From Variovorax sp. OAS795 (GTDB lineage: Bacteria; Pseudomonadota; Gammaproteobacteria; Burkholderiales; Burkholderiaceae_C), in contig NZ_JBEPOH010000001.1 in assembly GCF_040546685.1 (NCBI RefSeq), positions 124,001 through 188,000 of the forward strand: a DNA stretch of 64,000 nucleotides, in the 5' to 3' direction. The notes under the pieces were generated by a model. The model searched no databases. It worked only from the letters and a program-made list of their open reading frames with translations, and had not been told where the DNA came from. The position numbers were made by a program, and so were the translations under genes. Positions 19,076-19,307 of the stretch are shown piece after piece; the first letter of the stretch is position 1, and every line of letters begins with the position of its first letter.

Positions 19076-19169
19076 GGCCGGCAGTTTAGTGGCCGGCCGC
19101 GCCCTTCCTGCCTTTGTCTGCGGCCGCGCACGCTGCGGGCACAAATCCCGGCGCCTGCACGCTGCAGGC

Positions 19170-19272
19170 AAAAAAAAGCCCGACGTCTGCACGCCGGGCT
19201 GGGAAGCCCTTTTGCTGTCACACATCAAGGCACCCGCTCAGGGAGGAAAAGCGGGGAGCGGCAAGCCGCCCG
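19170..19272 (-). ncRNA. Candidate small RNA or hemJ leader attenuator (about 103 nt)
   Basis: Predicted transcript from about 19272 to the T-run at 19170. The 3' end is an intrinsic terminator: AGCCCG/CGGGCT arms (plus an inner three-pair CGT/ACG) followed by eight T. A second hairpin has arms CCGCT/AGCGG (19250-19254 and 19234-19238 on the plus strand) around a loop with TTCCTCCCTG, complementary to a ribosome binding site. A 5' hairpin GCGGG...CCCGC shares bases with it, so the two are mutually exclusive. It is preceded by a good promoter. I do not recognise a known RNA family. It may be a free trans-acting RNA or a leader that controls read-through into hemJ 95 bases further on. Confidence 0.65.
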
Positions 19273-19278
19273 CTGCAG

Positions 19279-19307
19279 AATTTAACAAAGACGAAACAAG
19301 GTTTCAA
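19279..19307 (-). promoter_or_regulatory. Promoter of the hemJ-hemB intergenic RNA
   Basis: Minus strand TTGAAA (five of six consensus bases), exactly 17 bases, then TAAATT (four of six). The predicted start is seven bases downstream, at about 19272, where the structured region begins. Confidence 0.7.

Follow-up and report, generated by a model that had tools for sequence, protein, structure and literature searches.

The Variovorax copy of the anti-hemB small RNA (RF02837) has a predicted sigma70 promoter, and many of its relatives a sigmaE-type one

The closest described relative of the element analysed here is ncS04 of Burkholderia cenocepacia J2315, a 105-nt member of the Rfam family RF02837 (anti-hemB), which in the available excerpts of two studies is seen on Northern membranes, has its 3' end set by 3'RACE, and co-purifies with Hfq (PMC5688073, PMC4603805). 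The excerpted results of the former give no significant change of ncS04 in biofilm, stationary phase, starvation, glucose, osmotic stress, low pH or low iron (PMC5688073, Table 2 for low iron), and an excerpt of a third study lists Anti-hemB in B. pseudomallei (PMC3521395). Other small RNAs, RF02278/ncS27 and S17 of Bordetella, are described in part-text sources as having CU-rich anti-RBS segments and a terminator hairpin (PMC5688073, PMC11722255), features that the present element shares. ErsA of Pseudomonas aeruginosa, 132 nt long (PMC5819304), depends on sigma22 (PMC6321483, PMC7565897) and with Hfq masks the RBS of algC (PMC6321483), and a putative Spot42 RNA of the same species, SPA0122, is listed at PA5492/engB in a context said to be conserved (PMC3349714), all as far as the excerpts of these sources go. 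In the literature available to us, most of it outside subscription journals, no link of anti-hemB with RpoE, Spot 42 or ErsA was found.

The window, by which we mean the whole stretch of 64,000 nt from Variovorax sp. OAS795 that was analysed, contains between hemJ and hemB an element that a sequence-only reading had described as an RNA whose family it did not recognise. It is in fact a copy of the catalogued family RF02837 (anti-hemB/ncS04), matched over its full length and above the gathering score. The features of the locus are as follows.

19445..20464, plus strand: hemB coding region, the divergent neighbour (open reading frame; name from the sequence-only reading)
19302..19307, minus strand: -35 box TTGAAA, sigma70 type (promoter scan; TTGA[AT] at the equivalent place in 26 own-genus stretches)
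19279..19284, minus strand: -10 box TAAATT, extended by TG (promoter scan; TAAATT in the same 26 stretches)
19170..19272, minus strand: predicted sRNA transcript of some 103 nt (5' end placed by the -10 box, 3' end by the U run)
19170..19257, minus strand: Rfam RF02837 anti-hemB match, 61.8 bits against a gathering score of 49.5, full length (positions 1-81 of 81)
19256..19271, minus strand: hairpin P1, the 5' hairpin, outside the Rfam match (fold; covariation; 120 of 149 listed stretches)
19233..19255, minus strand: hairpin P2, bearing the anti-Shine-Dalgarno loop (Rfam match, fold, alignment)
19240..19248, minus strand: loop UUCCUCCCU, unpaired (probability at least 0.98), putative seed
19206..19231, minus strand: hairpin P3, with apex UGUGUGACAGCA (fold, alignment)
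19177..19200, minus strand: P4, the terminator stem-loop (terminator scan, fold, covariation)
19170..19177, minus strand: U8 run of the terminator, its first U paired in the stem (sequence, fold)
19083..19088, minus strand: TAAACT, -10-like box of hemJ, 7 nt before its ATG (TA[AC]ACT in 51 of 53 hemJ loci)
18647..19075, minus strand: hemJ coding region, a neighbour outside the sRNA (open reading frame; name from the sequence-only reading)

Between 18900 and 19600, the promoter scan finds a single promoter-like site (one against 0.1 +/- 0.3 in shuffles), and this is the minus-strand TTGAAA and TAAATT pair already proposed from the sequence, with a spacing of 17 nt and TG before the -10 box. The stem-loop RNA of about 103 bases proposed along with it is borne out by the predicted fold of the transcript from 19272 to 19170, which consists of four hairpins, P1 to P4, with pair probabilities of at least 0.95, apart from 0.84-0.87 for the inner pairs of P3 and the outermost pair of P4; the 145-nt stretch as a whole folds better than most shuffles (z -2.44, with 4 of 200 equally good). 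The terminator stem has 10 bp and is followed by a T run, in which eight T are indeed present but the first pairs within the stem rather than following it; terminator-like sites are common in 18900-19600 (three against 1.1 +/- 1.1 in shuffles). The U8 run is a possible Hfq site. These signals argue for a real RNA element, predicted in this organism to be a self-contained sRNA gene, with promoter and terminator both its own. Against other families the window scores poorly: RF02278 (Betaproteobacteria toxic sRNA/double-hairpin RNA) reaches 20.9 bits against a gathering score of 50, matches to ncS025 and mmgR (listed as suhB) are likewise below their gathering scores, and Spot 42 is not reported by Rfam for the window.

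Like ncS04, the window copy is divergent to hemB and has its own terminator (described for ncS04 in an excerpt of PMC4603805), and its predicted length of 103 nt is to be compared with the 105 nt mapped in Burkholderia. The two differ in their downstream gene, which is hemJ in the window and a convergent engB in Burkholderia (engB was checked in B. ambifaria), in promoter sequence, and in P1, which is present in the window and was missed in 16 of 21 listed Burkholderiaceae loci. At E<=0.001, RF02837 has matches in 38 of 41 relatives (37 of them over the cut-off); within the order it is matched in 235 of 300 genomes (196 over) and within the class in 168 of 377 (20 over). The weak class-level matches are not all real, because 3 of 14 control genomes also match at this E-value, none of them over the cut-off.

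Some genomes carry further matches. Eight low-scoring ones in other genomes of the genus (L176, L177, L179, L180, L182, L183, L185 and L186) have a similar layout with other loops: five share TCCCCCGC...GGTCRACCTGTGCGGGGG and a common upstream TTTCTCCTTGACGGGTAAACCG, while three have GCCCCGA.TC.TTGGTT... and GGGGCCC. These are apparently sibling sRNAs with exchanged loops. Repeated copies occur in genome G242 (six matches, two of them about 180 bases apart), in Nitrosospira briensis (two copies, L093) and in the class-level genomes G461, G532, G544 and G585 (three to four matches each, close together).

Conserved pairing in related genomes, on which the sequence-only reading had made its proposal depend, is found both by covariance search and by alignment, and extends through the Comamonadaceae and beyond. 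A pattern search gave at least 120 loci, those of the same genus being near copies, and the 150 loci listed in all yielded 149 upstream stretches (two loci had less than 75 nt upstream and one gave two stretches). In an alignment of Comamonadaceae type, comprising 29 of 33 rows (32 chosen loci plus the window, with L061, L073, L110 and L144 omitted for their longer terminators), 91.9% of cells pair against 85.6% after shuffling (0 of 500 as high), two-sided changes affect 11 pairs against 7.1 (4 of 500), and the covariation score is 0.213 against 0.111 (0 of 500). The two-sided changes fall in P1 (four) and P4 (seven), with none in P3; P2 is invariant, and the invariance of P2 and its loop is partly by construction, since this stem and loop were demanded by the search pattern for most rows (120 pattern-picked loci). 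P1 is present in 120 of the 149 listed stretches with 75 distinct stems (9.8% in shuffles), and the 29 stretches without it comprise 16 of 21 from Burkholderiaceae, 7 of 52 from the own genus and Comamonadaceae, and 6 of 76 others. The apex of P3 is near-invariant in the 29 aligned sequences, although it lies outside the search pattern.

The proposal that the 5' and middle hairpins compete for the same bases does not survive this comparison. P1 (19271-19256) and P2 (19255-19233) abut, do not overlap, and form together in the predicted fold; the rival pairing requires GCGGG, which is found in just 16 of the 149 listed stretches, and it shows no two-sided change in the 29 aligned sequences.

Competing hairpins would have suited a switch controlling read-through into hemJ, and so haem synthesis, which was the other role suggested from the sequence. 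Under this explanation, the element would be a cis-acting leader or attenuator, its terminator or read-through into hemJ being under haem or iron control. The gene order in the window's own lineage is favourable to it: hemJ follows downstream on the same strand in 49 of the 52 listed loci of the own genus and Comamonadaceae, the hemJ ATG of the window comes 94 nt after the U run, and no further promoter-like site ahead of hemJ came up in the promoter scan. That scan, however, requires a -35 box and so did not list the box that hemJ does have. TA[AC]ACT occurs within 16 nt of the hemJ ATG in 51 of 53 loci (5-8 nt before the ATG; background 0.0019 per 16-nt window), and a Shine-Dalgarno-like 4-mer (GGAG, GAGG or AGGA) is absent before hemJ in 53 of 53. 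The hemJ mRNA thus looks leaderless with a promoter of its own, in loci that are nearly all from the own genus and Comamonadaceae; a TA-rich motif directly before leaderless genes is described for B. cenocepacia in an excerpt of PMC4603805. With its own promoter-like box and no apparent leader, hemJ would need no read-through and would offer no Shine-Dalgarno sequence to the loop, although some read-through into hemJ may occur. The association with hemJ also dissolves outside the group, where hemJ is downstream in 4 of 98 listed loci (53 of 150 overall) and the downstream gene is instead a convergent engB in 83 of 98 (83 of 150 overall, and 0 of the 52 from the own genus and Comamonadaceae). 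Since P1 and P2 do not compete, the mutually exclusive conserved pairings of a hemJ attenuator or riboswitch are not found here, and the B. cenocepacia homologue, in the part of PMC5688073 that gives it, is unchanged in low iron. We regard control of hemJ in cis as highly improbable, and prefer a small RNA acting in trans.

The family name points to a different neighbour, hemB, as the target of antisense control. Of the 150 listed loci, 114 have hemB as their divergent neighbour on the upstream side, and an excerpt of a review gives it as a predicted target of Bc7, an Hfq-bound RNA of B. cenocepacia (PMC6321483). In the window, however, the RNA is predicted to start at 19272, upstream of hemB and 173 nt from its ATG, and to be transcribed the other way, which keeps it clear of the hemB coding region; nor does hemB have a GGAGG-type site just before its ATG, so that the loop would find no Shine-Dalgarno sequence to mask at either gene next to the window copy. 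In the gammaproteobacterial loci, moreover, the RNA is beside engB or polA and, bar one doubtful record, without hemB. Antisense control of hemB therefore seems to us very improbable as well. The own promoter, own terminator and exposed anti-Shine-Dalgarno loop together make a trans-acting RNA, which had been raised as a possibility from the sequence, likely.

While the family itself was already known, the sigmaE-type promoter on many of its members is new, as is the polA-engB location of gammaproteobacterial members described further below. We take GGAACTT-N15-17-TCnnA to be the sigmaE/RpoE consensus, and counted a stretch as sigmaE-type if it agreed with GGAACTT at 5 or more of the 7 bases, the AAC core included, and its -10 box lay 24-34 nt ahead of CCCGC. 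This rule is met by 54 of the 149 listed upstream stretches, against 0.18 expected from the same loci's own DNA; 300 permuted consensus sequences gave a mean of 0.48 and none reached 54, the highest counts (37, 26 and 24) coming from permutations that keep the -10 rule. The sites are unevenly distributed: 0 of 52 in the own genus and Comamonadaceae, 2 of 21 in Burkholderiaceae, and 52 of 76 among the other listed stretches, including 8 of 8 in Rhodocyclales, 6 of 11 in Nitrosomonadales, 0 of 2 in Hydrogenophilales and 7 of 11 in loci titled Gammaproteobacteria. The rule thus fails in 24 of the 76 stretches outside both families, 5 of the 11 from Nitrosomonadales among them. When positions up to 38 nt are allowed, 12 of 21 Burkholderiaceae stretches pass, ten of them through GAAACTT/TCATA, a variant overlapping a TATCAT box.

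A separate set of 40 genomes gives a similar picture. These were hand-picked, mostly one per family, from the best-scoring order-level matches (235 genomes with a match) of a covariance model that is blind to the promoter, and 27 of the 40 pass with positions up to 38 nt allowed, all of them within 24-32 nt (0.35% in shuffles); the window's own family contributes 0 of 3 and the remainder 27 of 37. At class level, 13 of 20 genomes pass under a looser position window. A quick HemB tree, built from the 100 loci that have both a promoter state and a HemB match longer than 250 aa, requires two changes between the sigmaE and sigma70 states; many of its forks are weakly supported. From these strong statistics, we infer that the RF02837 family is sigmaE-controlled.

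The strict motif has 20 sites in ten genomes, all within eight of them, and eight of the sites are the sRNA, which is there by selection, as eight of the ten genomes were chosen for a strict sRNA promoter (G207 was in the set unintentionally). The other twelve sites are before rpoH (three, in two genomes; TIGR02392, above cut-off), a DsbA-like and a DsbD-like protein (one each, both below the model cut-offs), ErpA (one), an exonuclease-like protein (one, at 346 nt), proteins of no family (three) and no frame (two). Single sites mean little, because the reversed pattern has 15 matches in the same ten genomes; the informative part is the rpoH sites, rpoH being a classical sigmaE target. In genome G071, two rpoH genes (L244 and L249) score over the model cut-off, each behind a strict GGAACTT-N-TCTnA site.

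The window's own lineage is different. TTGA[AT]-N17-TAAATT is kept in 26 printed own-genus stretches, a set that excludes L010, a second copy in its genome without this promoter, and sigma70-like scores are obtained for 21 of 22 own-genus loci and 23 of 30 named Comamonadaceae. The sigmaE-type promoter is absent at the window copy, as it is in all 52 listed stretches of the own genus and Comamonadaceae, and also in the low-scoring or extra copies of the other genus genomes together with G242 (0 of 16). It could be argued that the window copy is still under sigmaE, whose consensus has diverged, and not under sigma70. The sequence TTGAAACCT overlaps GAAACCT, 5 of 7 bases of GGAACTT, close to where a sigmaE -35 box would be; rpoE is present in the genome; and the consensus there may differ, because the strict motif is absent genome-wide (0 matches, 2 in the reversed control). 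Indeed, a 6-base version matches once against nine times in the reversed control, so that the pattern, with no more matches than its reversed controls, cannot define a regulon in this genome, and there is no clear sigmaE site upstream of rpoE. Against this, the window copy has no TCnnA -10 box at the proper spacing, the sigma70-type pair is maintained in the 26 printed own-genus stretches, the sigmaE rule finds nothing in the 52 of the own genus and Comamonadaceae, and rpoH of the same genome retains GGAACCC-N16-TCTAA. We therefore consider a diverged sigmaE promoter unlikely; from promoter comparison, the lineage seems to have given the sRNA an ordinary, housekeeping promoter where many relatives have a stress-type one.

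The position of the gene in more distant relatives offers a link to better known RNAs. Among the loci listed, the 11 titled Gammaproteobacteria all have engB downstream and convergent, and polA was detected upstream in three. Among these 11, L133 has hemB upstream; it comes from a metagenome bin that bears the title Klebsiella pneumoniae, probably wrongly, because its HemB groups with those of betaproteobacteria. In 20 class-level genomes, polA upstream and/or engB downstream are found in the right orientation in 16, and the polA and engB names were confirmed by NCBIfam on sample loci. In E. coli K-12, polA, spf (Spot 42) and yihA have this same order and orientation, so that gammaproteobacterial RF02837 members share with Spot 42 the slot polA+ sRNA+ engB/yihA-, a likeness of position. 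ErsA is reportedly transcribed from the Spot 42 context, in which case it too shares the slot with the RF02837 family, in addition to the sigmaE/sigma22-type promoter common to ErsA and the family. The window copy itself has neither: it lacks the sigmaE promoter, it is outside the polA-engB slot, with hemB and hemJ as neighbours and no engB or polA match, and it is shorter than ErsA (about 103 nt against 132 nt).

The loop of P2 is as exposed as had been claimed from the sequence, and its complementarity to ribosome binding sites suggests how the RNA might act. A second CU-rich segment before the terminator U run, a possible further RBS-masking site, is found with a loose pattern in 38 of 54 sigmaE-state, 0 of 10 Burkholderia-type, 10 of 37 neither-state and 0 of 47 sigma70-state listed loci; by group, this is 0 of 52 in the own genus and Comamonadaceae, 2 of 21 in Burkholderiaceae and 46 of 75 in the others, and therefore the window RNA has one such loop. 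The pattern CAGGGAGG-N4-9-ATG has 10 sites in the window's genome and none in the reversed control, and the frames behind the 10 (nine short, one of 352 aa) include no convincing gene. As candidate targets, the start regions of 5 porin and 9 TonB-receptor matches in this genome were viewed, their starts being uncertain.

In the mechanism that we propose, an extended -10 sigma70 promoter would drive an RNA of about 103 nt ending at its own terminator. With the aid of Hfq, a role borrowed from the B. cenocepacia homologue, the CCUCCC loop of P2 would pair with GGGAGG-type Shine-Dalgarno sites of mRNAs encoded elsewhere in the genome, and the translation of these putative targets would be lowered. 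The family overall, judging from the comparison, would be a sigmaE-type (envelope-stress) sRNA of the polA/engB neighbourhood, which in the window's lineage would have moved under a housekeeping promoter and would have one CU-rich loop. Family membership, the promoter and terminator signals, the covarying hairpins and the exposed CCUCCC loop are computed results, and we are confident, short of certainty, that the window element is a sigma70-driven RF02837 sRNA acting in trans as a Shine-Dalgarno masker, in a family of sigmaE type.

On its own, the window element is one more Comamonadaceae copy of a catalogued family. The comparison offers RF02837, for which no function is reported in the literature that we found, a testable regulator in RpoE and a reason for its CCUCCC loop, and links it by position to Spot 42 and perhaps to ErsA. 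We consider it reasonably likely, with appreciable room for doubt, that RF02837 is a sigmaE-controlled sRNA of proteobacteria at large, that it has one or two loops masking Shine-Dalgarno sites and corresponds to ErsA in occupying the polA-engB (Spot 42) slot; that its promoter was switched in place from sigmaE to sigma70 in the ancestors of the Comamonadaceae, and separately or partly in Burkholderiaceae; and that the Comamonadaceae copies are without the second CU-rich loop, with hemJ replacing engB. If this is true, RF02837 is no Burkholderia curiosity tied to hemB, and an envelope-stress regulator became a housekeeping one with its start site unmoved. It would be a case of a small RNA whose body stayed the same through a change of sigma factor, and promoter swaps between lineages could test this.
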